NCBI RefSeq assembly: GCF_024505045.1 | Contig: NZ_JANIBM010000002.1 | Span: 1-64,000 of the forward strand | Length of the DNA: 64,000 bases | DNA from: Methylomonas aurea | GTDB taxonomy: Bacteria; Pseudomonadota; Gammaproteobacteria; Methylococcales; Methylomonadaceae | Reading direction: 5' to 3' | Shown here: positions 1 through 23,790 of the stretch, one piece after another | How the letters are laid out: each line of letters opens with the position of its first letter | How positions within the stretch are numbered: the stretch's first letter is position 1 | Notes under the pieces: model-generated | What the model saw: only the letters and a program-made list of their open reading frames with translations | What the model was told of the DNA's origin: nothing | Databases searched by the model: none | Program-made: the position numbers and the translations under genes

Positions 1-83
1 CTTTTCAACGCCCTTTTCCCCAGGACCCTGGAAAGTTTTGCACGCCGGTTAACAGTTGCACTTCACTTTTGAATCAGCCCAGT

Positions 84-2797: not shown

Positions 2798-2888
2798 CAG
2801 GTTCTCCCTTCTTGCGTTTGCATAGCGATTCACGCTTTAGGTGCACATATTGCCAAGCTTCGCTTGCCTACCTGTCAGAGTTGGGGGC

Positions 2889-4172: not shown

Positions 4173-4193
4173 AAATACTTTTTTGGTATGATG

Positions 4194-5168
4194 TTAATTA
4201 GACTGAATATTGTTCGGATTTAATGTGCTGTTTTTGCGCCGCAAGAAGCAACCGATTATTTGGCCGACAGTGTGGCTGATGTTCATCGCTTGTCTTAAGC
4301 CGTATCCTGTCTGTAATAATTGGATTATCCACTTTTGGGTTTGATTTAAACCTTGTGTTATTAAAAACGGCGGTATGCCAAAAATGGTGCGTTTATATTC
4401 GGGGAAATCATTTAGCGCGCCACGAAATCCGGCCAGATAATGTATTTTTATAAAGTATGCTTTTTTAAGGCGCCATGCTTCTATCGCGTGAATAATAGCC
4501 ATATCCGGTCTGTAACGGATTTTATGTTTCGATTTTAGCAGCTGGTGGAACATCATCACATCTTCACCGCCACCTATGGTTTTACCTTTTCGATCGAATC
4601 TTTTGTCGAATCTTAATTCAGGGGTGTTGCGGAATAGGTTCATATCGTAAGCGATATTCCCAGCCCAGACAGGGGTGCTAGTGTCTTCGATCCAAAAAGC
4701 TTTGTCTCCATGGTTCAGTGCGCCTAAAAAACCCAGTAGTTCGTCGCTTAGCCAATTCGGGCGCGCCAAGGTTCTAAAGTCGATTTCGATGCGTCCGCCC
4801 ACGCATTGCGCACCTTCATTGATAATTGCATCTACCGCAGCTTGCAACAGTCCGGGTTGGGGGAGTTCGTCGTCATCGATAAAAACCAGAACATCCGAGT
4901 CGAGTGCTTCGGCAATAGCTCTATTACGCGCCGCAACGATACCTTGATTCGGCTCATGTACGTACCTGAGCTTGGGTCCCGGAAGTTTCGATATTCCGTC
5001 CAAAACACTACGCGTATCGTCGTCGCTGTTGTTATCGATGGCGAGTATTTCGAACGGAATTGGGCATGTTTGTAAGCGCATTGACGCCACTAAATCCGGC
5101 AATCGCTCTGCGCGGTTGAATGTGCAAAATGCAAAAGCAAGTTTCCGGGTCGAGCGGTTCTTATTCAT
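4194..5168 (-). CDS. family 2 glycosyltransferase
   Basis: 324 residues with a GT-A fold. The N-terminus LAFAFCTFNRAERLPDLVASM is followed by EILAIDNNSDD and the nucleotide-sugar/metal motif VFIDDDELP. A conserved GGGEDVMMF segment near residue 200 is typical of GT2 enzymes. No membrane span is obvious except weak hydrophobic stretches near the C-terminus, so it should act on lipid-linked acceptors at the cytoplasmic face. It sits between the ligase-like gene and the deacetylase gene on the same strand, consistent with an exopolysaccharide assembly operon. Donor and acceptor sugars cannot be deduced. Confidence 0.85.
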   Translation of the reverse strand: MNKNRSTRKLAFAFCTFNRAERLPDLVASMRLQTCPIPFEILAIDNNSDDDTRSVLDGISKLPGPKLRYVHEPNQGIVAARNRAIAEALDSDVLVFIDDDELPQPGLLQAAVDAIINEGAQCVGGRIEIDFRTLARPNWLSDELLGFLGALNHGDKAFWIEDTSTPVWAGNIAYDMNLFRNTPELRFDKRFDRKGKTIGGGEDVMMFHQLLKSKHKIRYRPDMAIIHAIEAWRLKKAYFIKIHYLAGFRGALNDFPEYKRTIFGIPPFLITQGLNQTQKWIIQLLQTGYGLRQAMNISHTVGQIIGCFLRRKNSTLNPNNIQSN

Positions 5169-5315
5169 TTAAATTAGATTGCGGTCGAGAATAATAGTGT
5201 ATGTTCGGCGCGAATCGGGAGTGCTAACTTTGATAAATCGCTTGCCCGGCAACGGCTGCCGCAGACAAAAAGAGTTTCTTGTTCTCGTCTATCAAGCAAT
5301 TCCCAGTCACTATTG

Positions 5316-6092
5316 TCAATCGATGCCAACCTTGGCGTGTAGTTTGTTCAGGACGCGGCCAGTATAGTAACTAACGATTTTTTTCCAAGAAACGTCATTA
5401 TCGGCATAGGCCAGTTTTCGCGCCAATATGCCGGGGCTGTCGCCGGAAAATATTGCGATTCGGCGAACTAGAAAAGGGTTGTTTTCGCTTCCGAACCAGC
5501 CAGGGCGGGTTGTGCAGGCTAGCGAGTATCCAGCGTGTTCAGCAGCAGGTAACGAATTGGCGTTGAATCGGCCAAAGGGATAGGCCAGGCTTGTCACTGG
5601 TGCGGACAATAAATTCTCCAGGATTTTTTTGGCGCTGTTGAATTCGGCAAATTGTTGGTCATAGCTTAGGCGCGACAGGTCGGGATGCGAGCATGTATGA
5701 GAAGCGATTTCCATTCCTGCCGAATGCATTTCGAGCAGTTGCGTGGCGTCAAGCATTTGGCTTTGTTGGGAAATTTTACCTAGCCATTGCGCGTGGCCGC
5801 CGATACAGTCGGTAGTGATAAACCAAGATGCCTTCATGTTGTGCTCCAGTAAAGGTAAAAATGCACCTTGGAAGTTGTCCTTGTAACCGTCATCGAAGGT
5901 CAAAACAATGCTTTTTTCTGGCAACGAGTGCGGTGTGGCCAAGTCCTTGAACAGGATGGTAGTCCAGTCATTCTTTTGTAGGTATCTTAAATGCTGAGCG
6001 AATAAATTTGACTTGATCGAATACACCGATTCAGGTGTTTCGCTCGGGGTGCCGTGGTACATCAGAACAATCGGGCTGCGTATGTGGGACAT
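5316..6092 (-). CDS. polysaccharide deacetylase (carbohydrate esterase 4 / NodB type)
   Basis: 258 residues. The NodB-homology core shows LTFDDGYKDN (metal-binding Asp and catalytic Asp), SHTCSHPDLS (the H-xxx-H metal ligands) and AYPFGRF. The family hydrolyses N-acetyl groups from chitooligosaccharide, peptidoglycan or exopolysaccharide. The N-terminus IVLMYHGTP is typical of deacetylases in exosortase/EPS loci. No signal peptide is evident. It is the promoter-proximal gene of the minus-strand polysaccharide run seen here, separated by about 150 bases from the glycosyltransferase. The glycan substrate is not known. Confidence 0.88.
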   Translation of the reverse strand: MSHIRSPIVLMYHGTPSETPESVYSIKSNLFAQHLRYLQKNDWTTILFKDLATPHSLPEKSIVLTFDDGYKDNFQGAFLPLLEHNMKASWFITTDCIGGHAQWLGKISQQSQMLDATQLLEMHSAGMEIASHTCSHPDLSRLSYDQQFAEFNSAKKILENLLSAPVTSLAYPFGRFNANSLPAAEHAGYSLACTTRPGWFGSENNPFLVRRIAIFSGDSPGILARKLAYADNDVSWKKIVSYYTGRVLNKLHAKVGID

Positions 6093-6764: not shown

Positions 6765-8219
6765 ATGCTTATGTCCACATCCGCCCAAGAAATCGAAAAC
6801 CTGATCAGCCAGGAATACAAGCAAGGTTTCGTTACCGAACTCGAAGCCGACACTTTTCCGCCTGGTCTGGATGAAGATGTGATTCGCAGGTTGTCGAAAG
6901 TTAAAAACGAACCGGAATTCATGCTCGAATACAGGCTCAAGGCGTTTCGTCATTGGCAGACCATGAACGAGCCGGATTGGGCCCAGTTGAAAATCGATCC
7001 CATCGACTACCAAGCCATTAGCTATTATTCGGCACCCAAGTCAAAAAAGGATAAACCTAAAAGCCTGGACGAAGTCGATCCGGAGTTGCTGGAAACTTAC
7101 AAAAAGCTGGGCATACCTTTGGACGAGCAAGAGCGACTGGCCGGCATCGCCGTCGATGCGGTGTTCGACAGCGTATCGGTCGCCACCACCTTTAAAGGCA
7201 AGCTCAAAGAGGCAGGGGTGATTTTTTGTCCGATTTCCGAAGCGTTACAGGAACACCCTGAACTGGTCAAACAATACCTTGGTAGCGTCGTACCGGTTGG
7301 CGATAACTTTTTCGCCGCGTTGAACTCGGCAGTGTTTACCGACGGTTCCTTCGTTTACATCCCCAAAGGTGTGCGTTGCCCGATGGAGTTGTCCACCTAT
7401 TTTAGAATCAACGCTGCCAACACAGGTCAGTTTGAACGGACCTTAATCATTGCCGACGAAGGCTCGCACGTGTCCTATCTGGAAGGCTGCACCGCGCCGA
7501 TGCGCGACGAAAACCAGTTGCATGCGGCAGTCGTTGAATTGGTCGCTTTGGAAAACGCTCAGATCAAATACTCGACGGTACAGAACTGGTATCCCGGCGA
7601 CAAAGACGGTGTCGGCGGGATCTACAACTTCGTCACCAAGCGCGCCGAATGCCGTGGCCGTAATTCCAAGGTTTCGTGGACGCAAGTCGAAACCGGTTCG
7701 GCGATCACCTGGAAATACCCCAGTTGCGTGTTGTTGGGCGACGACTCGGTCGGCGAGTTTTACTCGGTGGCCTTAACCAACAATTTGCAACAAGCCGACA
7801 CCGGCACCAAGATGATCCACATCGGCAAAAATACCCGCAGCACCATCGTGTCGAAAGGTATTTCCGCCGGCAAAGCGCAGAACACTTATCGCGGCTTGGT
7901 CAAAGTCGCCAAATCCGCCGAGAACGCCCGCAACCATACTCAGTGCGATTCGCTATTGGTAGGCGATAAATGCGGCGCGCATACCTTTCCGTATGTCGAG
8001 GTGAAGCAACCGTCGGCGCAAGTCGAACATGAAGCCACCACATCGAAGATCAGCGAAGACCAATTGTTCTTCTGTCAGCAGCGGGGCTTGTCGGCCGAAG
8101 ATGCGGTGTCGATGATTGTGAATGGGTTTTGTAAGGAAGTATTTAAGGAATTGCCGATGGAGTTTGCGGTGGAGGCGCAGGCGTTGTTGGGGATTAGTTT
8201 GGAAGGGGCGGTTGGCTAA
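6765..8219 (+). CDS. sufB: SufB, Fe-S cluster scaffold subunit
   Basis: 484 residues, full length for SufB. SufB forms the SufBC2D complex, accepts persulfide sulfur and builds the nascent Fe-S cluster in the cytoplasm. The beta-helix core is clear: [21 protein letters not shown], then [28 protein letters not shown] and [10 protein letters not shown], whose Cys belongs to the conserved C-terminal site. The end [23 protein letters not shown] is diagnostic. The start could be ATG at 6765 or 6771; no strong ribosome site separates them. In most relatives sufC follows immediately, whereas here about 1.3 kb of repeat-bounded DNA intervenes. Confidence 0.97.
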
Positions 8220-8225
8220 ATGGTG

Positions 8226-8544
8226 TTTTGTAGGTTGGGTTAGGCGATAGCCGTAACCCAACACAGCGGCTTTTGAATTGTTTGGTAGCTTTTGTTTTCG
8301 TTGCGTCGTTATCGCGACGGATGGTTTTAAAGTCGGGTCTCGGCCCGACAGCCGAGATACTTTCTTTTGCTTGGCCAAAAGAAAGTATCCAAAGAAAAGG
8401 CCACCCGGAATTCCGCCAATTTCCTGCGCTTCTCGCTTTTGGCGAGGGTTTTCGGAAGGGGCTTCCCAGCCCCTCCGAAAACGAGCGGCATCCCTGCCGC
8501 TCCCCTGCGGGCTGATCTAGCCAAAAGCTGCGATGCTCGGGGCG
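8226..8544 (+). repeat. left arm of a ~300 bp inverted repeat between sufB and sufC
   Basis: This non-coding arm aligns over its whole length with the reverse complement of 9224-9514. Shared blocks in order: a TAGGYTGGGT palindrome, a GCGACGG block, a GTCGG...CTCG...CCGACAG...CGAGA block, ACTTTTCTTTGCTTG-like and AAAGTATCC blocks, a GGGGCTTCC/GCCCCT hairpin, GCGGCATCCCTGCCGC and CGGGCTGATC. The two copies differ by scattered substitutions and short indels, so they are diverged relatives, not a recent duplication. No protein is supported; short frames in it are shadows of the repeat. Confidence 0.85.
8234..8262. repeat. palindromic intergenic repeat unit (GTTGGGTTA...TAACCCAAC)
   Basis: Two perfect 9-base arms, GTTGGGTTA and TAACCCAAC, surround an 11-base loop just after the sufB stop. 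The unit resembles a short palindrome scattered between genes in many bacterial genomes. It could form a hairpin at the 3' end of the sufB message, but no T-run follows, so it is not called a terminator. Confidence 0.7.
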
Positions 8545-8718
8545 GAATAACGGGAAAAACCCCGTCGCGGGATTGGAACTTTTTGTCAGCTATTACTCGT
8601 AGGAAGAGTTTTAGGATGCAACTGACCAGATAAGGCGAAATTATTCGCGGCCTATACGATTTTTTATTTCAAGGCTTAATTTTAGTATAGATAAAACTCA
8701 ACACTTGGATGTTTTAAT

Positions 8719-9134
8719 ATGTCAATAGATTGATTAATAAGTTTATTGCTTGGGATTCCCATAGGGCTAGTTAGTGGGTTATATACAGGTTTGATTGTTA
8801 CAAGATACTCCAGGTTTTCTGATCTAAGAAATGAAGTATTAAGGATTGTTAGGGCTATTGACTATATGGGGAGCAAGGGTGCGTGAAAGTATCTAATAAT
8901 GAAAAAGTCCCTTCATTAATTAATATTGCAAGTGATTTATATTTTCTGAAACATAGAGAAGCAGGTGATTCTGTTTCTAGTATTTTAAGTAATATTAATT
9001 CCTCAACTGACAGTGCGCAGAGAGGGCAAATTGATAATGCTGAGTTTGGTAAGCGACATGCTTTGTGGCAAAAAGAAGCCAGAGAATTAACACCTAGTAA
9101 AAAGGTTTTATGGGCCTTTTGGGGAAATATTTAA
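8719..9134 (+). pseudogene. AT-rich degraded gene for a small membrane protein of unknown function
   Basis: From ATG 8719 the frame gives MSID, an in-frame TGA at 8731 (plausibly a former Trp codon), then a convincing membrane stretch LLLGIPIGLVSGLYTGLIV followed by RYSRFSDLRNEVLRIVRAIDYM and a stop at 8884-8886. The next frame is open from GTG 8883 to 9134 and encodes 83 residues, including DLYFLKHREAGDSVSSILS. Read together with one frame change they look like one ~137-residue protein with one N-terminal membrane helix. Alternatively they are two genes overlapping by GTGA. Base composition is far more AT-rich than the neighbours, suggesting acquisition. I do not recognise the family. Confidence 0.5.
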
Positions 9135-9223
9135 ATCCCGCGTATGCCCCGTTATGTCGTAATAATCAGACTTGCCTTTTCTGGATTTATTTTGAAGTTG
9201 TGATGGTTTTCCTCCCGTTTGTC

Positions 9224-9514
9224 GCGCCGAGCACCGGAGCTTTTGAACGGATCAGCCCGAAGGGGGCGGCAGGGATGCCGCACGTTGCCGAAAGGGGCAG
9301 GAAGCCCCTTTCGGCAACCCCGTTCAAAAGCTTCGGAGCGCAGGGAACAAGCGGCATCCAGGTGTCTTTTCTTTTGGATACTTTTCTTTGGACAAGCAAA
9401 GAAAAGTGTCTCGCCTGTCGGTGCGAGAACCGACTTACAAAACACCGTCGCGTCAGCGACACAAATTAAAGATTTAATGCTGGGTTTCACTTCGTTCTAC
9501 CCAGCCTACATTTT
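9224..9514 (-). repeat. right arm of the ~300 bp inverted repeat between sufB and sufC
   Basis: The reverse complement of this segment follows 8226-8544 block for block, including the AAAGTATCC region, the GGGGCTTCCTGCCCC hairpin, GCGGCATCCCTGCCGC and CGGGCTGATC. Together the two arms enclose the AT-rich degraded gene at 8719-9134. The arm ends about 20 bases before the sufC start, so the sufC ribosome site and any local promoter must lie at or just beyond its edge. Confidence 0.85.
9479..9505. repeat. palindromic repeat unit (GCTGGGT...ACCCAGC), mirror of the unit after sufB
   Basis: GCTGGGT and ACCCAGC form a perfect 7-base stem around 13 bases. It is the counterpart of the palindrome at 8234-8262 in opposite orientation and forms the outer edge of the right arm, about 30 bases ahead of sufC. 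Confidence 0.65.
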
Positions 9515-9535
9515 AAAAACTTAGGTAAAAAACGT

Positions 9536-10285
9536 ATGCTCAGCATAAAAAATCTCCACGTAACCATCAACGACAAACCCATATTAAAGGGTCTAACCCT
9601 GGACATAAACCCAGGCGAAGTTCACGCCATCATGGGCCCTAACGGCGCCGGCAAGAGCACTTTGTCGCACGTGCTGTCCGGCAAACCCGGTTACACCGTC
9701 ACTGAAGGCAGCGTGACTTACGACGGCAAGGATTTGCTGGAAATGGACCCGGAAGTCCGCGCCCGCGAAGGGGTGTTTCTGGCGTTTCAATATCCAGTCG
9801 AGATTCCGGGTGTCAGCAACATCTATTTGCTGAAAGCGGCCCTGAATGCGATGCGCAAGCACAAGGGCCTGCCGGAAGTCGATGCGATGGATTTTCTGAC
9901 CATCGTCAAAAGCAAGGTCAAGTTGTTGCAGATGGACGAGAAATTTTTGTACCGCGCGGTCAACGAAGGTTTTTCCGGCGGCGAGAAGAAACGTAACGAG
10001 ATTTTGCAGGCAGCGGTGCTGGAGCCGAAGTTGTGCATCCTCGACGAGACCGATTCCGGCCTGGACATTGACGCGTTGCGGATTGTGTCCGACGGCGTCA
10101 ATTCGCTGCGTGCCGCCGAGCGCTCGTTCTTGATGATCACCCATTATCAACGCCTGCTGGATTACATCAAACCCGACGTAGTGCACGTGTTGGCGGACGG
10201 CAAAATCGTCAAGTCCGGCGGGCCGGAGCTGGCGTTGGAGCTGGAAGAAAAAGGTTACAGCTGGCTGGAAGGGCAAGCCGCATGA
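9536..10285 (+). CDS. sufC: SufC, ATPase of the SufBCD complex
   Basis: 249 residues. An ABC-type ATPase without membrane domains that drives conformational change of the SufB-SufD scaffold during cluster assembly. Visible motifs: Walker A GPNGAGKST near residue 35, the Q-loop LAFQYPVEIPG, the SufC-type signature EGFSGGEKKRNEILQ, Walker B LCILDETDSGLD, and the H-loop MITHYQRLL. ATG at 9536 directly follows the repeat island, so expression depends on readthrough from sufB or on a promoter inside that island. Its last four bases overlap sufD (ATGA), giving translational coupling. Confidence 0.97.
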   Translation: MLSIKNLHVTINDKPILKGLTLDINPGEVHAIMGPNGAGKSTLSHVLSGKPGYTVTEGSVTYDGKDLLEMDPEVRAREGVFLAFQYPVEIPGVSNIYLLKAALNAMRKHKGLPEVDAMDFLTIVKSKVKLLQMDEKFLYRAVNEGFSGGEKKRNEILQAAVLEPKLCILDETDSGLDIDALRIVSDGVNSLRAAERSFLMITHYQRLLDYIKPDVVHVLADGKIVKSGGPELALELEEKGYSWLEGQAA

Positions 10286-11586
10286 TCGCCGCCGAACAAT
10301 CAGCTTATTCATATCTGTCTGCCTACCAAGACTTGGCACCGTCGTTGCCGGGTGTCGATCAGCCATGGTTGCAGCAACTCCGTGCCGAAGGCTTGGCTGC
10401 CTTTGCCGAGCGCGGCTTTCCCAATATCCGCGAAGAAGAATGGCGTTACACCAATCTGTCGGCGTTGAACAAAACCGTGTTCGCGCCGGTTGCGGAACAG
10501 GGCATTGACGCGGCGTGGTTACAGTCATACCGCCTGGAAGACGCTTATAGCGTGGTGCTGGTTAACGGTCGCTATGTTGCCGGTTTGTCGGCTTTGTCCG
10601 GTTTGAACGACGGCGTCAGCGTGCGCAGTTTGGCCGAGGTACTGGCGCAAAATCCCGCAGCGCTTGCCGGTAAATTGGGCCAAGCGGTCGCCAGTAGCGA
10701 ACACAATCTGGTTGCGTTCAACACTGCCTGGTTCGCCGATGGTGTCGTGATCGAGGTTGCCGCCAAGCAGCAATTGGATAAACCGTTGCAGATTCTGCAC
10801 GTGGTGACCGAGGCCAACGCGCTGGTCGTCAGCCGCAATCTGTTCCTCGTCAACGACCAGGCCGAAGCGGAAATCATCGAGACTTACGTCGGCAGTGCCG
10901 ACAGCTATTTCACGGTGTCGGTCAACGAATGTCTGTTGGGCCGCAACGCCGGTTTGACTTTCTACAAAGCGCAATTGGAAGCCGCCAAGGCGCAGCACTT
11001 TGGCGGTACTTACGTCAAGCAAGCGCCGGATAGCCGTTTTGCTCACCACAATTTTGCGCTCGGCAGTTTGCTTGCGCGTAGCGATATTCATAGCGATCTG
11101 GACAAAGCGTCGGCATGCACCCTGAACGGCTTGTTCGTCGCCAGCGGCCGCCAGCATCTGGACAATCACACCCGCATCAACCATTTGCAGCCTTACGCTA
11201 TCAGCCGCGAGTTTTATAAAGGTGTGCTGGATAAAAAGGCGCGTGGCGTGTTTCAGGGCCGGGTGGTGGTCGCCGAGGGCGCGCAACATACCGATTCGGA
11301 AATGAACAACCGCAATTTGTTGCTATCGGCCGATGCCGAGGTCGATACCAAACCGCAGCTGGAAATTTATAACGACGACGTCAAATGCTCGCATGGCGTC
11401 ACCGTCGGCCAGTTGGAAGAAAAGTCGGTGTTTTACCTGCAGTCGCGCGGTGTCGATGCGGAAACGGCACGAAACATTTTGACCTTCGCTTTTGCCAATG
11501 AAATGGCGGATAAGGTGGAGAATGCCGAGTTGAAGGGCTTGTTATTGCAGGAGTTATTGGCGCGGTTTCCGGCGATGAATTTGTAG
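10282..11586 (+). CDS. sufD: SufD, Fe-S assembly scaffold partner
   Basis: 434 residues, normal for SufD. It pairs with SufB and SufC and is needed for iron acquisition during cluster building. The N-terminal part has GFPNIREEEWRYTNLSALN, typical of the family. The C-terminal beta-helix shows LNGLFVASGRQHLDNHTRINH, then GRVVVAEGAQHTDSEMNNRNLLLS, PQLEIYNDDVKCSHGVTVGQL and FYLQSRGVDAETARNILTFAFANEM. The GCSH-type segment with its Cys and His is the residue set shared with SufB at the interface. The start ATG overlaps the sufC stop. An antisense Uma2 gene follows before the operon resumes with sufS. Confidence 0.96.
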   Translation: MIAAEQSAYSYLSAYQDLAPSLPGVDQPWLQQLRAEGLAAFAERGFPNIREEEWRYTNLSALNKTVFAPVAEQGIDAAWLQSYRLEDAYSVVLVNGRYVAGLSALSGLNDGVSVRSLAEVLAQNPAALAGKLGQAVASSEHNLVAFNTAWFADGVVIEVAAKQQLDKPLQILHVVTEANALVVSRNLFLVNDQAEAEIIETYVGSADSYFTVSVNECLLGRNAGLTFYKAQLEAAKAQHFGGTYVKQAPDSRFAHHNFALGSLLARSDIHSDLDKASACTLNGLFVASGRQHLDNHTRINHLQPYAISREFYKGVLDKKARGVFQGRVVVAEGAQHTDSEMNNRNLLLSADAEVDTKPQLEIYNDDVKCSHGVTVGQLEEKSVFYLQSRGVDAETARNILTFAFANEMADKVENAELKGLLLQELLARFPAMNL

Positions 11587-11596
11587 GAGCCAACGT

Positions 11597-12169
11597 CTAC
11601 AGGATGTCGGCGACTCGAACCTGAATCTCCGGCAGGGCAACCAGACTGACAGTGTCGGCCTTCGCTAACGTTGTTTGCTCCTGGTAATCGCCATCGTCGG
11701 GTTGCCGGTAGATTTCCAGGCAGTTGTCGATCAGATTGACGATCCAATACTCGGGGATTTGGTGGGTGGCATACAAACGGCGTTTTTGCTCGCGGTCGAA
11801 ACGTAGCGTGCTGTCGGAAACTTCGATCAGCAATAGCACGTCGCCAGCCTTGGGGTGTCGGGTGGTGTAAAAATCGGGGTTGGGTTTTAGCAATAAAAAA
11901 TCCGGTTCCGGTTCGGACAGGTCGCCAAGTTGAACGGGATTTTGCGAATTGACAATGGCTCGGCCTTGAACGCGCAGCGTTAAGGCATGAATGAGTCGGG
12001 CAACATGCCCGGCATGATTAAAGCCAATCGGTGCCATATGCAAAATTTCTCCTTCGATCAGTTCCAGGCGCGCTTCAGGCGGAAAAATCCCGGCCTCGCC
12101 CATGCGATGCCACTCGGCGATGTCGGTGAGGTGTTTTTGCGGGAAAACGGCGACCATAGTTTTATCCAA
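11597..12169 (-). CDS. Uma2-family (DUF820) putative endonuclease
   Basis: 190 residues of the Uma2/DUF820 family, which has a PD-(D/E)xK nuclease-like fold. Recognisable segments are RLELIEGEILHMAPIGFNH, then EPEPDFLLLK and DVLLLIEVSDSTLRFDREQKRRLYA, in which the Asp, the Glu and the following Lys are candidate active-site residues, and IPEYWIVNLIDNCLEIYR. The family is abundant in cyanobacteria and often horizontally spread; cellular function is poorly defined. It lies antisense between sufD and sufS, with only 10 bases to the sufD stop, so it interrupts the suf operon on the opposite strand. The start could also be the Met at residue 5. Confidence 0.88.
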   Translation of the reverse strand: MDKTMVAVFPQKHLTDIAEWHRMGEAGIFPPEARLELIEGEILHMAPIGFNHAGHVARLIHALTLRVQGRAIVNSQNPVQLGDLSEPEPDFLLLKPNPDFYTTRHPKAGDVLLLIEVSDSTLRFDREQKRRLYATHQIPEYWIVNLIDNCLEIYRQPDDGDYQEQTTLAKADTVSLVALPEIQVRVADIL

Positions 12170-12237
12170 TGAACGAATCGACTGAATCGATTCTAGTGTT
12201 TAGAAAAGACGAAATCAATTAAACCAAACAGTTAGCG

Positions 12238-13461
12238 ATGAGCACATTTCCAATCGAACACATCCGCGCCGACTTCCCTATCCTCGGTGAAAAGATCCGC
12301 AATAAACCCTTGGTTTATTTGGACAACGCCGCCAGTTGCCAAAAGCCGCAAGCGGTGATCGATGCCATCGTGCGCACCTATAGCCACGAATATGCCAACA
12401 TCCATCGCGGTGTGCATACGCTCAGCGTCAAGGCCACGGATCGCTTCGAGGCGGCGCGGGAAAAGGTCAGGGCGTTTATTAATGCCAGCAGCGAAAAAGA
12501 AATCATCTTCGTGCGCGGTGCCACCGAAGCGATCAACCTGGTTGCGCAGAGTTACGGCAAGTCGCAGTTTAAAGCCGGCGATGAAATTGTGATTAGTGCG
12601 ATGGAGCATCACGCCAACATTGTGCCGTGGCAGATGCTGTGCCAGCAGATCGGTACAGTCTTAAGAGTCGCGCCGATTAATCAACAAGGCGAATTGCTGT
12701 TTGACGAGTTCGAAAAGCTACTAAACAGTAACACCAAATTGGTCGCCATCACCCACATGTCCAACGCGCTGGGTAGTATCAATCCGGTCGAGAAAATCAT
12801 CGCAGCCGCCCACGCTAAAAATATCCCAGTGCTGCTGGACGGCGCTCAGGCGATTCCGCATATGCCGGTCGATGTCCAGGCGCTGGATTGCGATTTTTAC
12901 GTATTTTCCGGCCATAAACTCTACGGCCCGTCCGGCACCGGCGTGTTGTACGGCAAGCAAGCCCTGCTGGAAGCAATGCCGCCGTATCAAGGCGGTGGCG
13001 ACATGATTCGGCAAGTGACCTTCGAAAAAACCACCTACGCCGGTTTACCACATAAATTCGAGGCCGGTACCCCGGCGATTGCCGAGGTCATTGGGCTGGG
13101 TGCCGCGATTGATTACGTCAGTGCGATTGGCATGGATAACGTTGCCGCTTACGAAGCTGAATTGCTGGACTACGCCACCGACCAAGCGCAGCAAATCAAA
13201 GGCCTGAACATCATCGGCCAAGCCGAGCATAAGGGCGGCATCCTGTCGTTCACGCTGGACCATATCCACCCGCACGACATCGGCACCATGCTGGACAGCT
13301 TGGGTATCGCCGTGCGTGCCGGGCATCATTGCGCGATGCCGGTCATGGACTTTTACGGCGTACCGGCCACGGCGCGCGCGTCATTTGCCATGTACAATAC
13401 CCGGCAAGAAATCGATATTTTGATGCAAGGCATCAAGTCCCTAATTGAGGTGTTTGGCTAA
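12238..13461 (+). CDS. sufS: SufS cysteine desulfurase
   Basis: 407 residues, PLP-dependent class V aminotransferase fold, group II cysteine desulfurase. It removes sulfur from L-cysteine as a protein-bound persulfide and passes it to SufU. Visible are DNAASCQKPQAVIDA, then FVRGATEAINLVAQSYG, EHHANIVPWQ, the PLP-binding region VFSGHKLYGPSGTGVLYGK with its Schiff-base Lys, and the catalytic Cys in GIAVRAGHHCAMPVM near the C-terminus. The stop overlaps the sufU start by one base (TAATG). Pairing with sufU instead of sufE suggests a SufU-type sulfur relay. Confidence 0.97.
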   Translation: MSTFPIEHIRADFPILGEKIRNKPLVYLDNAASCQKPQAVIDAIVRTYSHEYANIHRGVHTLSVKATDRFEAAREKVRAFINASSEKEIIFVRGATEAINLVAQSYGKSQFKAGDEIVISAMEHHANIVPWQMLCQQIGTVLRVAPINQQGELLFDEFEKLLNSNTKLVAITHMSNALGSINPVEKIIAAAHAKNIPVLLDGAQAIPHMPVDVQALDCDFYVFSGHKLYGPSGTGVLYGKQALLEAMPPYQGGGDMIRQVTFEKTTYAGLPHKFEAGTPAIAEVIGLGAAIDYVSAIGMDNVAAYEAELLDYATDQAQQIKGLNIIGQAEHKGGILSFTLDHIHPHDIGTMLDSLGIAVRAGHHCAMPVMDFYGVPATARASFAMYNTRQEIDILMQGIKSLIEVFG

Positions 13462-13916
13462 TGTTTGACGAATTACGCGACCTATACCAAGAGGTCATCT
13501 TCGACCACAACCGCAACCCGCGCAATTTCCGCATCATGGATGACGCGAACAGGCGGGTGGATGGTTTTAATCCGCTGTGCGGCGACAAACTCACCTTGTT
13601 TTTGAAAATCGGCGGCGACCATGTGATTCAGGATGCCAGCTTTCAGGGTTCCGGCTGCGCGATTTCCACCGCCTCGGTGTCGCTGATGACCGAAATCATC
13701 AAGGGCATGACTGAAAACGACGCGGAAGCCTTATTCAAACAATTCCACGAAATGACCACCGGCAAGACCGAGGACATCAACCTGGAAGCGATCGGCAAAC
13801 TGGCGGTACTGGCCGGAGTGCGCGAATATCCTGCGCGGGTCAAATGCGCGACCTTGGCTTGGCATACGCTGGATGCGGCGTTGAAGAATCAACAGGAAGC
13901 GGTTTCCACCGAATAG
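13461..13916 (+). CDS. sufU: SufU-type Fe-S assembly / sulfur transfer protein
   Basis: 151 residues of the IscU/NifU N-terminal family in its SUF-associated form. The three conserved Cys are C40 (FNPLCGDKL), C66 (GSGCAIS) and C129 (ARVKCATLAW), with the Asp after the first (GDK) that ligates metal. The ~20-residue insertion between C66 and C129, typical of SufU, is present (GMTENDAEALFKQFHEMTTGK). It probably works as the sulfurtransferase partner of SufS, taking persulfide for SufBCD. Its TAG stop overlaps the GTG start of rsmJ. Confidence 0.93.
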   Translation: MFDELRDLYQEVIFDHNRNPRNFRIMDDANRRVDGFNPLCGDKLTLFLKIGGDHVIQDASFQGSGCAISTASVSLMTEIIKGMTENDAEALFKQFHEMTTGKTEDINLEAIGKLAVLAGVREYPARVKCATLAWHTLDAALKNQQEAVSTE

Positions 13917-15041: not shown

Positions 15042-15488
15042 TCAAACCAACATATAGCCAACGCTACCGGCCAAAAAGGCGAATTCGACCAACAACAACT
15101 GCATCTTCTGCAAGACCGGCAACATCTCCCAATAGCTTTGCCACCGTTCCCGCAAGCGGACACAGCTTTCGATGCAGTAGCGTTTCGCCCGCTGCAACCA
15201 GATCGGCAAGTGTCGGACGATCCGGTACAAAACGCCGGCACCGATGGCGCAACTGCTATAAAACACGATCATTTGCGCCTGGAACTTGCTGAAACCGAAA
15301 ACGTGCGTCAATAACTCTTCCACGGCAAAGGCTACGCTTTCGTAGACCGTATGAACTGCCACGGCAATAAAGTGCAAAGTCTCGACAGGGAATTTTACGC
15401 AAACGATCAGCAAACCGACCAACACCAAAGTCTTGATTATCGTGGTTCGAGAAAATTGGCTTTTATCAAACTTTCTAATCATACTCAT
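15042..15488 (-). CDS. small membrane protein of unknown function in the export operon
   Basis: 148 residues from ATG 15488, which has GAGGTG directly before it and starts 5 bases after the tolC-like stop; an upstream frame from 15569 lies inside that gene and is not used. Two hydrophobic segments (TIIKTLVLVGLLIVCVKFPV near the N-terminus and LLLVEFAFLAGSVGYMLV at the end) bracket a basic, Arg-rich middle. I do not recognise the family. Tight spacing makes it the fourth gene of the ABC/HlyD/TolC operon, so an accessory role in that exporter is the simplest guess. Confidence 0.65.
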   Translation of the reverse strand: MSMIRKFDKSQFSRTTIIKTLVLVGLLIVCVKFPVETLHFIAVAVHTVYESVAFAVEELLTHVFGFSKFQAQMIVFYSSCAIGAGVLYRIVRHLPIWLQRAKRYCIESCVRLRERWQSYWEMLPVLQKMQLLLVEFAFLAGSVGYMLV

Positions 15489-15492
15489 CACC

Positions 15493-16905
15493 TCATTGTG
15501 CGTAATCCAAAGGTGCGGCGACCGCGGCCTGAAAGTCGGCATGGGCCTTGAATAGGCTGGCCGCCGCATCAGCAGCTTGCAACGTCGCGTCGCCGCTGGC
15601 TATTTCGCGTAAGTTAACAAATAACAAAGTCGTTTCACCCCATTCGAAGCGAGTGCGTTCCCCTTCCTCCAACTGGCGGGCCGCCTGCTGCTGCTGTTCG
15701 CTTAGCCTCAGCCGCTGGCGGGCGGCGTTCAAGGCCGACAGCACATCCTTCACTTCAGCATTGATCCGGTCCTCCGTGCCGGTGCGCTCCCAGCGCAGAC
15801 GCCTTAAATTGGCTGCCGCCGTTTGTGCACGACCGCCGGCGACCCGCTGTTGTAGCGGTATATCGACATTCAAACCAAGATAGAGTTCGTCGCGGTTCAA
15901 CTTATCTTTGGCATAGCCGATGTCGCTGGCCCCCATCACCGAGAAATCAACGGCCGGGTTACGCTGGTTGTTTTGCAAAGCCAGTTCGGTCTCGGTCTGC
16001 TGGCTCTGCAATTCCAAACGCTTCAATTCCGGCCGTTGGCTGCGCGCCAGTTGAGCGGCGTTTTCGAAATCCGCTTCGATTTTGGGCTCACGTTCCGGAA
16101 AGCCGTTCGGCAATAATTCGTCGGTGGGCAATTGCGGTTGGCCGTCGGCGTCGCGCCAGTACAACGATAACTGAATCGCGCTTTGTTCCAGCATACGTTT
16201 GGCGGCGACCAGCCGTTCGCGGCGCTCGATGATCGCCCGCTGGTTGTCCAGCGCTTCGAAATCCGGAATGTCGCCGGCGGCGACCCGCTGCAGAATGCCG
16301 TCGTTACGTTGTTCGGCAATTTGCAGCAGTTGCGCCGCGGTGCGGGCGCGCAGGCCGGCCAAGACCCAGTCCCAATAGCGGTGGCTGGCTTGGCGCCGCA
16401 CTTCCAACAAGACTTGATCGAACTCGTGGTTGGCGATCAATTTGCCGAGTTCGGCTTGTTGCAAACTGGCGCGGCGACGGTCGATCTCGCGGTTACGCCA
16501 TAACGGGATGTTGACACCGATTCGCGCCTCACCATCGTCGGCAGTCTGGCTTTTGCCTTCATAGATCGGATATTGGCCGCTGCCGCGCCGCCACCCGCCG
16601 AAAAACGTCGCGCCCCACAGACTGGTCGGTTGTTCGACCACCACATCGTAATTGCGGTTTTCGTACATGCCGGCTACCGACCAGCGGTTTTGAGATTTCA
16701 ATAGAGTATCGAAGCCGCCCTCCGCGGTTTGCAGCTCGCCTTCGGCGACTTGCTTACGCTGCTCCGCCGCCAGTAAACCCGGAAACGCCCGCAAGGCCGC
16801 ATCCAACACTTCTGCCAAAGCCAGTGGCCGCGGCGCGGGCGCGGGTTCGGCCGAGGCCAGCAGCGGCAGCCAGGCTAAAATCAGAATCGCTGCCTTGGTT
16901 TTCAT
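15493..16905 (-). CDS. TolC-family outer membrane efflux protein
   Basis: 470 residues with a signal peptide (MKTKAAILILAWLPLLASAEP) and the two long alpha-helical repeats of outer membrane factors. Examples are AFPGLLAAEQRKQVAEGELQ at the start of repeat 1 and QRPELKRLELQSQQTETELA at the start of repeat 2, with VDFSVMG strand-like pieces between. It would form the trimeric outer membrane duct for the inner membrane exporter encoded upstream. ATGA overlap with the HlyD-like gene shows translational coupling. The substrate is unknown. Confidence 0.9.
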   Translation of the reverse strand: MKTKAAILILAWLPLLASAEPAPAPRPLALAEVLDAALRAFPGLLAAEQRKQVAEGELQTAEGGFDTLLKSQNRWSVAGMYENRNYDVVVEQPTSLWGATFFGGWRRGSGQYPIYEGKSQTADDGEARIGVNIPLWRNREIDRRRASLQQAELGKLIANHEFDQVLLEVRRQASHRYWDWVLAGLRARTAAQLLQIAEQRNDGILQRVAAGDIPDFEALDNQRAIIERRERLVAAKRMLEQSAIQLSLYWRDADGQPQLPTDELLPNGFPEREPKIEADFENAAQLARSQRPELKRLELQSQQTETELALQNNQRNPAVDFSVMGASDIGYAKDKLNRDELYLGLNVDIPLQQRVAGGRAQTAAANLRRLRWERTGTEDRINAEVKDVLSALNAARQRLRLSEQQQQAARQLEEGERTRFEWGETTLLFVNLREIASGDATLQAADAAASLFKAHADFQAAVAAPLDYAQ

Positions 16906-18257
16906 TCTTTTTTCTCGCCGCTGTCGGCTTTCTTGTCGTCGCCTTTACTGGCATCCTTGACTTCGGGCTCCGGCAAGACTAACGGCGGGAAGCCGTTGAA
17001 GATCCGCCACAATTCGTAGCCCAGCGTGACTTGGCCGAGCAGTACCCAACCGTTGACGCGGACGCCTTGGCGTAGAAAACGCACTTCCGGCCAGGGAATG
17101 TCGTCCGGATCGGGTTGCACCAGGATCCGAAAATGGCCCTTGCCGTCGTCGGTGGCATCGATCAGCACCACTCGGCCGCCGAACGAACCGATCGAAAATT
17201 CGGGCCAACCGCCGAACTGGATGGCGGGATAACCTTCGAATTGCAGGCGCACCTTGCTGCCGGAGACGATCAGCGGCAGGTCGTTGCCGTCGACCCATAG
17301 CTCCACCGCGCGCTGGTCGGTGTCCGGCACCAGCATCGCTAGAGGTTGGCCGGCCTTGACCATTTCCGCATTCGGATTGACCAACAAGCGCAATACCGTA
17401 CCGTCGCGCGGCGCAGTGATGGTTTGGGTTTGCTGGCGGGCCAGACGGGTTTCGACCTTAAGCAAATCCGCACGCAAATAATTCTGGTCTTCGATGGCCT
17501 TGTTCAACTCGGCGCGGGCTTTTTCGACGCTGGCGGTGGTGTCAGCGGTCAATTTGCGCAGATCGGCGCCCACCGCGTCGACTTCGCTCCTGGCCGCCGC
17601 CAGTGCCGCGTGGGCGCGGTCGAGATCGGCGCTACGTTGCGCCATTTCCAGTTGCGCCAATTCCAGCGTGCGCCGCGAGGCCAAGCCTTTCTCTTGTAAG
17701 GTTTGTTGCCGGGTCAAATTCAAGGACGAGGTCAAGCGGGCGGCGCTGGCGGCTTCGGCGCCTTGCACGGCTTGGCGTTGGCGTTGGCGGGCCATCTCCA
17801 GCCGGGATTCGGCCGCGGCCAGCGCTTGCGGTCGGGCCTGTTCGGCCATGCGCAATTGTTCGCGGAAGGTTTCCACCCGGTTGTCGATCGCGGTTTGCCG
17901 GCCGAGCAAGGCTTGGCGTTCGCTTTCCAGCCGTTGCAGCAGCAGCGGGTCATTGTCGCGCAATTCGGCGATCACTTCGCCGGCCCTGACCCGGCTGCCT
18001 TCCTTGACCAGCCAGCGCGAGATGCGGCCTTCCACCGGCGCGCCGACGGTTTGTTGGCGGTCGCCGGGGATATAGGCCACGACGCGGCCGATACCGCGTA
18101 CGTTCTGCTGCCATGGTGTCAATAACAACAAGAACAACAGCACTGTCAGCAGCAGCAGTAAAGAGCGGGCGATCTTACCCGCAATCGGGGCTGTGACCGC
18201 ATCGCTTAACAGTCTCAGGTGGTTGCCCGGCAGCCAATCGTCGGTTTCGCTATGCAT
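16902..18257 (-). CDS. HlyD-family membrane fusion (periplasmic adaptor) protein
   Basis: 451 residues. One N-terminal membrane helix (SLLLLLTVLLFLLLLTPW) follows a cytoplasmic tail of ~30 residues. Then come a biotinyl-lipoyl half (APVEGRISRWLVKEGSRVRAG), a long Ala/Arg/Gln-rich coiled coil from about residue 110 to 270, the second lipoyl half (ITAPRDGTVLRLLVNPN) and beta-barrel domains. The acidic/Lys-rich tail is low complexity. It should bridge the ABC-type inner membrane protein and the TolC-like protein in a type I secretion-like complex. It starts two bases after the ABC gene stop and overlaps the TolC-like gene. Confidence 0.9.
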   Translation of the reverse strand: MHSETDDWLPGNHLRLLSDAVTAPIAGKIARSLLLLLTVLLFLLLLTPWQQNVRGIGRVVAYIPGDRQQTVGAPVEGRISRWLVKEGSRVRAGEVIAELRDNDPLLLQRLESERQALLGRQTAIDNRVETFREQLRMAEQARPQALAAAESRLEMARQRQRQAVQGAEAASAARLTSSLNLTRQQTLQEKGLASRRTLELAQLEMAQRSADLDRAHAALAAARSEVDAVGADLRKLTADTTASVEKARAELNKAIEDQNYLRADLLKVETRLARQQTQTITAPRDGTVLRLLVNPNAEMVKAGQPLAMLVPDTDQRAVELWVDGNDLPLIVSGSKVRLQFEGYPAIQFGGWPEFSIGSFGGRVVLIDATDDGKGHFRILVQPDPDDIPWPEVRFLRQGVRVNGWVLLGQVTLGYELWRIFNGFPPLVLPEPEVKDASKGDDKKADSGEKKE

Positions 18258-18259
18258 CG

Positions 18260-19918
18260 TTATGCTCCCTCAATCAACGTTTCCAGCAAACGGCCTTCCA
18301 CCAACACGGCTTGGCGTCGGAACCGGGCCAGAACCAACGGCTCGTGGCTGATCACGAGCAAGGTCCATGGCGCATCGGCGGCGGTCAGGCATTCGAGTAT
18401 ACCGGGTAAGTAGCGGGCGTCGATCCGGTCCAGCGCCTTGTCGATCAACAATAGCTGGGGCTTGACGGCGATGGCCCGGGCCAAGGTCAAGCGCAGGGCT
18501 TGTTCTTCGCTGAGCGGTGCCCCGTGCGGGCACAAAGCGGTATTCAAGCCGTCGGGCAGGGCCGAAATGGCGTCGAGTAGTCCGACTTGAGCGAGTGCTT
18601 TGCGCATTTCGAACAGTGCCAAATCGCTGCCTAAGTTCAGGTTTTCGGCAACGGTTGCTTCCACCAATTCGGCATGGCGCACCAAACCTATGGTGTCGCG
18701 CAGACGGCCCAGACTCAAGTCGCGCAGATCCTGACCGTTTAGCAGAATTTGACCGGCACTTGGCGTGCGTAAACCGAAAATCGCATCGAGCAGCGTGCCG
18801 CGATCGGCACCGGTGCTGATGGCTATGCGTTCCCCTGGTTCCAGCGTTAAATCGAGCCGATTGGCCTGATCGGAGTAAGGCGTGCCCGGCAGGCAGAGTT
18901 GTTTGATTTCGACCCGGCAGCCGCGTTCGGCAGGCTCCGGTTGCCCGCCTTGGCCGGCTTCCTGCGGCAAATCCAGCAGGTAGCCGATTTTGTCGACGCT
19001 GGCGACCAGTTCGTAAAAATTATCCAGGGTTTTGCCGAGCCGGGTCAGGCCGTAGACCATGGCGTTGACCACCAGTTCGGCGGCGATCAACTGGCCCAGG
19101 CTGAGCTGGCGCTCGATCACCATCCAGCCGCCCATGCCCAACAGGGCTGTGTTGGCCAGGGTATGCAGTACCAATGCGCCGATGTTCTGCCGGGACAATA
19201 TCCGGAAGTGGTTGACGCAAGCGGCGAGATAATGCTGAGCGATGCGTTCGGTTTGTAGGTTAACGAAATCCTCGCCGCGCCGGCTTTTGCCGAGCAAGGG
19301 ATTGGCGGCGATGTTTTCCAGCCAAGCCGCCGCCGTATATTTGGCTCGGGATTGTTCGATCACGGTCGGGATGCCTTGTTTGCCCATCACAAACAGGATC
19401 AGGTACAGCGCAACCACCAGAAACAAGTCGAACGCCAGCAACAAGGGGTGGTAAAACGCCAGCAGCAACATGCCGATCAGGGTTTGTAGCAGATAGCCCA
19501 GCGTTTCCAGCAATAGCGATGCGGCGGTCTTTTGCAGCGACACCACGTCGAAGAAGCGGTTGGCCAGCTCCGGCAGGTACTGTTGGTCGCGTACCGTCAT
19601 CGCCGCATTGCGCAGCCGTTCGGCGGCTTCGCCGAACAACCTGACGAACAACCGGCGTTGCAGCATTTCGACCACGTAGAACTGCAGCGCGACCAGACTG
19701 TTGCTGAACGACAGCAGCACTAGCAGGATCAGCGTCAACACGACCAGCGGTTGCAGCAACGCGCCGAAGGCGATGGTATTGACCAACGCCTGTACCGCGA
19801 CCGGCGTCGCCAGCGACATTAGGCCGATACCGACGCCATAAGCCACTAACGAGCCGATATCTTCCCGTTCGATCAGGATCAGCCGTTTCAAGCGTTGTAA
19901 CGGATCGTGCGATGCCAT
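18260..19918 (-). CDS. ABC exporter (membrane domain plus degenerate nucleotide-binding domain)
   Basis: 552 residues: six-helix exporter domain (residues ~20-300) and a C-terminal NBD (~335-550). The NBD fold is kept but every key motif is altered. Walker A is STGADRGTLL (residues 368-377; Lys lost), the Q-loop Gln is His in GLVRHAEL, the signature is LSEEQ in place of LSGGQ, and Walker B ends IDK (residue 494; catalytic Glu replaced by Lys). The H-loop ISHEP is intact. The frame is open and long, so this is divergence under selection, not simple decay. It heads a four-gene operon with HlyD, TolC and a small membrane protein. ATP hydrolysis by this chain alone looks unlikely. Confidence 0.88.
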   Translation of the reverse strand: MASHDPLQRLKRLILIEREDIGSLVAYGVGIGLMSLATPVAVQALVNTIAFGALLQPLVVLTLILLVLLSFSNSLVALQFYVVEMLQRRLFVRLFGEAAERLRNAAMTVRDQQYLPELANRFFDVVSLQKTAASLLLETLGYLLQTLIGMLLLAFYHPLLLAFDLFLVVALYLILFVMGKQGIPTVIEQSRAKYTAAAWLENIAANPLLGKSRRGEDFVNLQTERIAQHYLAACVNHFRILSRQNIGALVLHTLANTALLGMGGWMVIERQLSLGQLIAAELVVNAMVYGLTRLGKTLDNFYELVASVDKIGYLLDLPQEAGQGGQPEPAERGCRVEIKQLCLPGTPYSDQANRLDLTLEPGERIAISTGADRGTLLDAIFGLRTPSAGQILLNGQDLRDLSLGRLRDTIGLVRHAELVEATVAENLNLGSDLALFEMRKALAQVGLLDAISALPDGLNTALCPHGAPLSEEQALRLTLARAIAVKPQLLLIDKALDRIDARYLPGILECLTAADAPWTLLVISHEPLVLARFRRQAVLVEGRLLETLIEGA

Positions 19919-19939: not shown

Positions 19940-22738
<2,799 letters not shown>

Positions 22739-22845
22739 GGCCGATCTCGGAAAATTTGTGTTGGCCAAAAGATATGTCTTGTTAGAAAAATAGTAAAATT
22801 GAATAAATAAATTTATTTCATAGAAAATTCCGATGTATTGAGGCC

Positions 22846-23790
22846 ATGGATCGAATCAATTACCAGCATCTTTACTATTTTTGGGTCGTTGCCAAACATG
22901 GCAGCATCAGTGCCGCCTGCGAGGTATTGCATTTGGCCCAGCCCACCATCAGCGGCCAATTGGCGATATTCGAACAGGCCGTGGGCTGCCAATTGTTCGT
23001 TAAGCAGGGACGGAAATTGCTGCTGAGCGATACCGGTCGTGCGGTATTTCACTATGCGGAGGAAATATTCAGTCTGGGGCGCGAGTTGACGCACATGTTG
23101 AAGGGCGGCGGCGGCCGCGGCATGCGCCTGAATTTGGGTATCAGCGATGCATTGCCGAAATTATTGTCGTACCGTTTGGTCGAGCCGTTGCTGCGTATGG
23201 CGGAGCCGGTTCAGATCCATTGTTTGGAAGACAAGACCGAGCGCTTGCTGGCGGAACTGGCTCTGCACGGCGTGGATCTGGTGTTGTGCGACGTGCCGGC
23301 GACGCCGGCCAGCGGAGCCCGGGTGTTCAACCATTTTCTGGGCGAGTCGCAGGTCGCGATTTTTGCTGCTCCGGCACTGGCGGAGCGCTACCGAAGCGAC
23401 TTTCCGCGTTGTCTGAACGGCGCGCCGTTTCTGTTGCCGACCGCGAATACCGCGTTGCGCCGCTCGTTGGACCAATGGTTCGATGTCAATCAAATCAGTC
23501 CGACGGTGCAGGTCGAGGTCGAAGACAGCGGGTTGCTGAAAACCTTCGGCGCCGGCGGCAGCGGCTTGTTTTTCTCGCCGCTGGCGGTGGCGGAGGCGAT
23601 CGAGAGCCAGTACGGAGTATGTACGTTGGGCATCGCCGACGGCGTGGTCGAGCGGTTTTATGCGGTGACCGCGCAGCGGCGGTTAAAGCATCCATTGGTG
23701 AACACGATTCTGGAGCAGGCGCAAAAAGGCTTGTTCGGCTTGTTATCCAACGCGCCAGCTACGGAAGTGGTCGCGGTTGGCCAGGTTTAG
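22846..23790 (+). CDS. LysR-family regulator, NhaR-like
   Basis: 314 residues. N-terminal helix-turn-helix (INYQHLYYFWVVAKHGSISAACEVLHLAQPTISGQLAIFEQAVG) with the LYYFW and TISGQ features of the NhaR subfamily, then a substrate-binding domain with DALPKLLSYRLVEPLL, VDLVLCDVPATP and EDSGLLKTFGAGGSGLFFSPL. E. coli NhaR activates nhaA in response to sodium; here the neighbour is ppc, divergently transcribed, so the target may differ. The intergenic region between the two genes is AT-rich and could hold both promoters. The ligand is unknown. Confidence 0.88.
   Translation: MDRINYQHLYYFWVVAKHGSISAACEVLHLAQPTISGQLAIFEQAVGCQLFVKQGRKLLLSDTGRAVFHYAEEIFSLGRELTHMLKGGGGRGMRLNLGISDALPKLLSYRLVEPLLRMAEPVQIHCLEDKTERLLAELALHGVDLVLCDVPATPASGARVFNHFLGESQVAIFAAPALAERYRSDFPRCLNGAPFLLPTANTALRRSLDQWFDVNQISPTVQVEVEDSGLLKTFGAGGSGLFFSPLAVAEAIESQYGVCTLGIADGVVERFYAVTAQRRLKHPLVNTILEQAQKGLFGLLSNAPATEVVAVGQV

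Follow-up and report, generated by a model that had tools for sequence, protein, structure and literature searches.

A cross-phylum family of tripartite ABC exporters with a dismantled ATPase, which may work without ATP hydrolysis

Introduction

In type I secretion systems (T1SS) such as HlyB-HlyD-TolC, an ABC half-exporter, an HlyD adaptor and a TolC-type duct are encoded together. Heterodimeric ABC exporters with one degenerate site keep one complete nucleotide-binding site and usually have an adjacent partner gene. Here we analyze a 64,000-nucleotide stretch of Methylomonas aurea (contig NZ_JANIBM010000002.1), hereafter the window, which is the first 64 kb of its contig in a genome of 4.8 Mb. 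The window carries an operon of the T1SS layout, in which the nucleotide-binding domain (NBD) of the ABC half-exporter has lost most of its catalytic residues. The ATPase is the defining part of an ABC transporter; a widespread, selected family with the channel retained and the engine lost would be a natural test of whether the ABC membrane domain can run on another energy source.

The same energy-source question was previously raised for LmrA and MsbA through engineered constructs. LmrA-MD and MsbA-MD, from which the NBD was removed, are reported to perform H+-coupled transport, and LmrA is reported to catalyze H+-Na+-Cl- symport, with E314 in transmembrane helix 6 (TM6) needed for pH-gradient dependence (PMC2704374, PMC4979069). 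A different departure from the ordinary ABC motor is described by Kamneva et al. (2015) in secondary SecA_DEAD/HlyD/M50 modules, in which the authors detected no ABC homologue and for which they propose SecA_DEAD as the ATPase (PMC4452313). No description of the family reported below was found in the open-licence full-text literature, judged from titles and the starts of abstracts among the matches listed.

Results

The ABC gene lies on the minus strand at 18260–19918 and encodes a half-exporter of 552 aa, with six transmembrane (TM) helices and a degenerate NBD. Its frame is open and intact, as an earlier note made from this DNA alone had stated. The protein matched Pfam family PF00005 at 51.6 bits, above the cut-off, and PF00664 at 26.4 bits, just below the cut-off of 28. 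The place of the Walker A motif reads STGADRGTLL (residues 368–377; 18788–18817); it has no P-loop Lys and is two residues shorter than the P-loop when aligned to control exporters. The former signature is LSEEQ (residues 469–473; 18500–18514), and the Walker B motif, LLLIDKALD (residues 489–497; 18428–18454), keeps its Asp (D493) and has Lys (K494) in place of Glu. All three changes had been reported in the earlier note, and all three were seen in the protein. The note had also read the Q-loop Gln as His. The Gln is indeed gone, but one residue is missing at this place (LVRHAE, residues 412–417; LVRHA, residues 412–416, at 18671–18685), so that the Gln position corresponds to R414/H415; the loop is one residue short in nearly all relatives aligned. 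The claim that all catalytic NBD motifs were lost was slightly too strong: the Walker A Lys, the signature and the Walker B Glu are gone, but D493 and the H-loop His (H524) are kept, these being the only canonical residues still present. A functional set of Walker A, Q-loop, signature, Walker B and H-loop is absent from the protein. Sequencing error is an unlikely cause of these changes, because genome G002 (99% complete) shows the same motifs in a protein that is 94% identical.

Downstream of the ABC gene, on the same strand, are genes for an HlyD-type periplasmic adaptor (451 aa; 16902–18257; PF13437, 58.7 bits) and a TolC-type outer-membrane protein (470 aa; 15493–16905; PF02321, 107.3 bits). 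Only 2 nt (CG) separate the ABC stop codon TAA from the HlyD ATG, and the HlyD and TolC genes overlap by 4 nt. This tight spacing agrees with the intact HlyD/TolC operon described in the earlier note.

A protein search of the window's own genome and 60 relatives found 16 other genomes with matches at 58–94% identity; 13 more had matches of a second group, at 39–42% identity. None of the 17 loci of the window group (L001–L017, 58–100% identity) has the Walker A Lys, LSGGQ or the Walker B Glu, and most of these defects extend across the wider family. Close homologues with normal Walker motifs, which would have made the window gene a lone decayed copy, were therefore not found. One genome of the same genus (G026) has two orthologues, on contigs G026:C65 and G026:C6, at 71% and 63% identity; motifs were checked for the first. 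A profile of the transmembrane domain (TMD) alone, built from an alignment of 15 rows, detected family members in 99 of the 301 genomes searched within the order and, in a phylum-wide search that counted the window's own genome, in 11 of 398; nearly every genome matched in the order-wide search has a single member. The best 80 loci of a collection scan included named records of Methylococcales, Nitrotoga, Planctomycetota, Acidobacteriota, Myxococcota and Alphaproteobacteria, and a plasmid protein search returned 12 records from Sphingomonadales and Persicobacter (Bacteroidota).

We examined gene context at 120 loci, some on contigs that end early and some from genomes represented twice. A homologous HlyD gene was clustered with the ABC gene in 117 of these loci, and a homologous TolC gene in 106, some loci ending before the TolC gene. 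The design, of which the earlier note knew no described example, recurs widely and is not unique to this locus. Members are annotated automatically as ‘ABC transporter ATP-binding protein’ or ‘ABC transporter transmembrane domain-containing protein’, which hides the family.

Many members (L018, L095, L105, L110 and others) are ~700–760 aa long, with an extra N-terminal domain of ~160–200 aa. A C39-like identity for this domain was considered and rejected: four long members scanned had no Pfam match in this part at E<1, and in four long members the T1SS profile matches started at about profile position 124–154 or, with the shorter PrtD profile, close to its beginning, leaving the N-terminal part uncovered. 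The N-terminal part is left as an unrecognised domain. On two Sphingobium plasmids (L215, from S. baderi; L219, pTK1 of Sphingobium sp. TKS) the family gene lies beside hxsB/hxsC His-Xaa-Ser maturase genes and an S8 protease gene; L219 showed neither HlyD nor TolC, and its ABC gene is followed by an IS3 transposase.

Motifs were tabulated for 118 non-redundant members, drawn from 160 by dropping proteins shorter than 480 aa and near-copies (>70% shared 6-mers). The tables cover neither loci L031–L060, several of whose genomes are represented by other loci, nor the order-wide and phylum-wide profile matches without an assigned locus. As controls we used 20 other ABC exporters, mixed paralogues from the order of the window genome. 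The full canonical NBD set in register occurred in 0/118 family members versus 20/20 controls. A strict Walker A motif (GxxxxGK[ST]) was present in 60/118, the Walker B Asp in 103/118, the Walker B Glu in 16/118, the H-loop His in 17/118 and the Gly at the fourth signature position in 18/118, each against 20/20 controls. Exact LSGGQ was found in 2/118 members versus 19/20 controls, and the Q-loop Gln in 4/118 when the exact column is required and in 7/118 when a shift of one column is allowed, versus 20/20 controls. Two Bryobacterales members (L106, L122) have a three-residue gap immediately before or within the P-loop, leaving GTGKST and TGFGKST; this deletion differs from that of the window clade.

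In a quick TMD tree, the 118 members formed one side of a branch against the 20 controls (SH-aLRT 100); the controls are from one order, long branches are flagged and some of them meet, and the deep forks are weak. The fewest changes on this tree were, in rough numbers, 14 for Walker A, 9 for the Walker B Glu, 12 for the His and 12 for the signature Gly. From these counts, the ATPase engine seems to have been lost piecemeal and many times. In Methylococcales, two kinds of ABC protein occupy the slot nhaR-PEPC-ABC-HlyD-TolC (PEPC, phosphoenolpyruvate carboxylase). In the window, L071 and L156 this slot holds an ABC protein without the Walker A Lys, and in L161, L166 and, with atypical P-loops, L162, L168 and L170 it holds a distant member with the Lys. 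Because the slot is filled by ABC proteins of either kind, the Lys seems not to be required for its function.

Constraint on the two domains is the inverse of that in the controls. TMD identity exceeded NBD identity in 6899 of 6903 family pairs (means 50.0% vs 34.9%), but in only 11 of 190 control pairs (means 27.3% TMD, 45.8% NBD); mixed paralogues lower the control TMD identity, which counts against leaning on this contrast and makes a comparison of nonsynonymous divergence (dN) in close pairs the fairer one. In 9 close control pairs, NBD dN was 0.7–1.9 times TMD dN, whereas in 11 of 12 family pairs it was 1.4–7.3 times TMD dN; in the remaining pair (L018/L021) the ratio was ~50, the TMDs barely differing. 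The earlier note had proposed a dN/dS check for purifying selection, and in the 12 family pairs the ratio was well below 1 in both domains (TMD 0.015–0.136, NBD 0.067–0.473; NG86 method, near saturation with dS > 1 in several pairs). For the control pairs, 6 of 18 domain estimates gave no dS and only dN was used. Because its dN/dS is well below 1, the NBD is not free to decay and seems to be kept as a fold.

An AlphaFold2 model made with 71 family sequences is a full exporter half, with six long helices and an NBD (mean pLDDT 83.8, ~90 over the NBD). Its best fold match in the PDB was HlyB of the HlyB/D complex 8dck (TMq 0.89, 21% identity); PCAT1 and TmrAB were fold matches too. The protein thus shows the six TM helices and ABC-fold NBD of the ABC exporter type IV fold superfamily.

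The conserved part of the protein is the TMD (residues 1–317; 18968–19918, minus strand), as judged from the 118 members, the 20 controls and 12 plasmid members. Position E281 in TM6 (codon at 19076–19078, minus strand) is Glu in 118/118 members and 0/20 controls. K193, S190, Q244, Q276, Y156 and Y302 are likewise present in 118/118, although Y156 and Q276 also occur in 9/20 and 6/20 controls. K130, R93 and H237 are each found in 117/118 members, W199 in 114/118, and E84 is Glu in 109/118 and Asp in 7 more. The 12 plasmid members, at 32–35% identity, all keep E281, K193, S190, Q244, Q276, Y302 and K130. By the helix order of the AlphaFold2 model, E281 would lie ~7 residues into TM6 from the periplasmic end, and K130, S190 and K193 toward the cytoplasmic side.

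The genes around the operon point to a likely link with inorganic-carbon and Na+/pH physiology. In the window, the ABC gene directly follows a PEPC gene (19940–22768, minus strand; PF00311, 982.3 bits), and a LysR regulator resembling NhaR is divergent from the latter (22846–23790, plus strand; NF008284, 209.8 bits, just below the cut-off of 219). The minus-strand order is PEPC, ABC, HlyD, TolC and small membrane protein. From the PEPC stop to the ABC start is 21 nt, AAGGAG precedes the ABC ATG, and the PEPC gene is probably co-transcribed with the operon. Across the family, 14 of the 107 loci with enough upstream sequence have an NhaR-like gene no more than 1.8 kb upstream; they span Myxococcota, Acidobacteriota, Planctomycetota and Gammaproteobacteria. 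Five of these LysR proteins were scanned: three exceeded the NhaR cut-off (242.0, 241.6 and 236.3), whereas the window protein and that of L182 (176.5) fell under it.

Among the 120 loci, neighbours included PEPC in 16, carbonic anhydrase (CA) in 8, DabA in 4, DabB-like proteins in 4 and SulP in 3, several of these checked by Pfam. At least one inorganic-carbon neighbour was present in 28 loci, some genomes being counted twice and L100 being counted through a DabB-like or complex I-like subunit only. A Sphingobium plasmid carries genes for DabB-like, DabA, ABC, HlyD and TolC proteins in that order, with CA ~4 kb further; on a Persicobacter plasmid PEPC lies ~2.4 kb upstream. In L093 a CA open reading frame (ORF) is followed, after 105 bp, by the ABC ORF, and in L092 a SulP-CA fusion is divergent from the ABC gene. 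PEPC adjoins the ABC gene in 9 of 10 Methylococcales genomes that have PEPC, the exception being G007. Sixteen Methylococcales genomes hold 2–11 SulP, 2–5 CA, 0–4 DabA and 0–3 PEPC matches each, fragments included.

We estimated a base rate from 21 host genomes outside Methylococcales (137.8 Mb from rounded sizes; hand-picked, positives included), which hold 12 PEPC genes, counted from 15 matched pieces, and 14 DabA matches. DabA or PEPC was present in 5 of 76 non-Methylococcales loci (1.10 Mb; some from one genome) versus 0.21 expected, namely DabA in L120, L137 and L213 and PEPC in L148 and L220. The excess gave P = 2.7e-6 with five events and P = 6.6e-5 with four, L120 and L137 being sister lineages; the functional category was chosen after the neighbours had been seen. 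The inorganic-carbon link is convincing through these other phyla. It is a recurring link and not a rule, because most of the 76 loci have no DabA or PEPC neighbour.

The last gene of the window operon encodes a small membrane protein of ~148 aa if translation starts at MSMIRKFD, as we presume (15042–15488, minus strand; the longest ORF runs from 15569). It had no match in Pfam (E<0.01) or NCBIfam (E<0.001). Homologues occur downstream of the operon in 13 loci, and distant homologues upstream of the ABC gene in 6; as far as the loci are named, they were seen in Methylococcales only, some genomes twice. A pattern like H..E..EE..H..G....AQ..VFY is conserved in the window, L155, L161, L162, L167 and L077/L157. 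ArsR-type regulators lie near the operon mainly in Acidobacteriota, and ORFs of polysaccharide type lie beside two gammaproteobacterial members. Just beyond the tripartite operon, at 6765–13916 of the window, are ORFs that we take to be suf iron-sulphur cluster genes (SufB, SufC, SufD, SufS and SufU-like). Positions 1–6000 have 42–47% GC, against 52–63% from 10 kb onward, and were perhaps acquired; the ORFs there resemble a sulfatase-like membrane protein, an O-antigen-ligase-like protein, a glycosyltransferase and a polysaccharide deacetylase.

Discussion

What we observed directly is the family with its operon, the absence of catalytic NBD residues from nearly all members, a constraint pattern turned round between the two domains, and the invariant polar residues of the TMD. 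From them we are inclined to conclude that the window protein belongs to a cross-phylum family of tripartite exporters whose ATPase was dismantled repeatedly under selection, and that it works without ATP hydrolysis. The earlier note had left two options, a borrowed ATPase partner or function without ATP; we favour the latter. In the mechanism we envisage, an ABC homodimer would dock on HlyD-TolC and transport would proceed without ATP hydrolysis, in the window clade probably also without ATP binding; the NBD would act as a platform with a structural or regulatory role. An ion gradient could supply the drive; candidates for the coupling residues are E281 and, in most members, also D164 and E84. 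We put this energy source forward tentatively as the leading candidate because a membrane carboxylate is among the invariant residues, because NBD-less LmrA and MsbA are reported to perform H+-coupled transport, and because NhaR-like and HCO3–-related genes cluster with the operon.

Several observations weigh against this interpretation. About half of the members keep the P-loop, and L030, L133 and L141 keep Walker A, the Walker B Asp-Glu and the His together; L141, the least degenerate member, adds LSSGQ and a Gln displaced by one column. With so many P-loops retained, and most of the catalytic residues in these three, some members may still hydrolyse ATP. Among the proposed coupling residues, D164 is Asp in 105/118 members and Asn in 9/118, and in the plasmid members it is Asn or Gly in 12/12, with E84 replaced by Ala in 9/12; owing to this variation, E281 is the only universal carboxylate in the alignments, and its candidacy for coupling is argued from its position. 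As for the neighbours, most of the 120 loci have no inorganic-carbon gene beside them, the Methylococcales background is estimated at ~4–5% per 16 kb, and the PEPC linkage in that order is probably one old event. We accordingly set aside an argument from Methylococcales alone as weak, given their many SulP, CA, DabA and PEPC copies and the possible single event.

Motif loss by itself resembles decay, and a pseudogene or locally decaying gene would show it too. Internal stops are absent, however, from every match of at least 58% identity in the window's own genome and the 60 relatives, the operon and its genomic slot are conserved, and dN/dS is well below 1 in both domains; purifying selection and conservation across genera and phyla refute decay, to which we give practically no credence. 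It is very improbable that the system is still an ATP-driven T1SS, in which unusual residues would hydrolyse ATP slowly, at least in P-loop members. The strict Walker A in 60/118, the Walker B Asp in 103/118, and L141, L133 and L030, of which L141 lacks little else, could be read in this way. Nevertheless, the window clade has a shortened loop without the P-loop Lys, the Glu, LSGGQ, Gln and His are each absent from most of the family, and the constraint is inverted.

A borrowed engine, with the degenerate subunit pairing with a canonical half-exporter, or relying on an ATPase such as a secondary SecA, encoded elsewhere, is somewhat less remote, though improbable; the arrangement would resemble an asymmetric heterodimer or a mixed HlyB-like assembly. 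Asymmetric heterodimers with one degenerate site do exist, namely TmrAB, TM287/288 and BmrCD (PMC8277102). In the host genome, 20 more places match the window protein at E <= 0.001, and a second SecA_DEAD protein is encoded besides the canonical SecA. This second protein lies on another contig (G000:C22:68114–69313, in a 692-aa frame) and is perhaps like that of the modules in PMC4452313. A pattern search for canonical Walker A plus signature found a second exporter half in the operon in 0/120 loci; the search covered canonical motifs in the locus flanks, some of which end early with their contigs, so that a partner with unusual motifs or encoded elsewhere would escape it. The adjacent consensus-site half-exporter typical of heterodimers was accordingly seen in 0/120 loci. 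Canonical-pattern ABC ATPase ORFs did occur in the flanks of 5/120 loci: three of 247–248 aa, one other, and one 8 kb away (L149). The three, which lie just downstream of the operon in L089, L163 and L177, presumably are SufC-like, and the one other we take to resemble ABC-F. Nearly every genome matched in the order-wide search, moreover, has a single family member. A partner could complete only the site that uses the window protein's Walker A and B, which are gone, while the window protein's own LSEEQ would ruin the second site. In a heterodimer, both composite ATP sites would suffer from the degenerate signature and Q-loop, and on these grounds we disfavour the borrowed partner of the earlier note. 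HlyD and TolC are also encoded together with the window ABC gene. The SecA module of Kamneva et al. has HlyD parts and no ABC protein (PMC4452313).

The alternative closest to our interpretation is a passive or gated conduit, sensor or scaffold, whose TMD dimer would open and close in response to a ligand, a pH change or an ion signal, without pumping. NBDs act as regulators in CFTR and SUR, and the retained fold, the conserved K130, S190, K193 and W199 toward the cytoplasmic side and the loss of the ATPase would fit a gate. An ungated path through both membranes would be costly, however, and having an HlyD-TolC duct of its own points to directed export by the system. We regard a gated passive conduit as unlikely taken singly, while nearly as likely as an ion-gradient drive.

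Because PEPC, DabAB, CA, SulP and NhaR-like neighbours recur, the family is likely to be tied to inorganic-carbon and Na+/pH physiology. The fullest proposal, a natural cross-phylum class of ABC proteins that gave up ATP, is ion-gradient-driven or gated and acts in inorganic-carbon and Na+/pH homeostasis under NhaR-type control, is one that we hold to be possible and still doubtful. If true, the inorganic-carbon physiology of methanotrophs and other bacteria would gain an envelope-spanning component that had gone unrecognised.

Among known systems, T1SS is the closest in architecture, but to judge from the sequences the window operon falls outside it on ATPase motifs and curated cut-offs. Its NBD catalytic residues are lost, and the window protein has no C39-like domain. 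Scores against the NCBIfam models were far under the cut-offs for the ABC protein (HlyB TIGR01846, 129.1 vs 725.55; TIGR03375, 128.3 vs 693.1) and for its partners (type_I_hlyD, 80.9 vs 208.65; type_I_sec_TolC, 33.6 vs 225.15). No recurrent substrate-like gene stood out among the neighbour clusters of the 120 loci. The heterodimeric exporters TmrAB, TM287/288 and BmrCD share the tolerance of degenerate nucleotide-binding residues, but in the window the degenerate half stands alone in its operon. The SecA_DEAD/HlyD/M50 modules, which occur in Planctomycetes and Proteobacteria, resemble it in combining T1SS-like parts with the lack of an ordinary ABC motor (PMC4452313). LmrA E314 and window E281 lie in the same helix; the distance to the Walker A place suggests different positions and speaks against equivalence, which we do not claim. 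LmrA-MD and MsbA-MD are engineered truncations of active ATPases in laboratory constructs, whereas in the family described here the loss of the engine would be natural.

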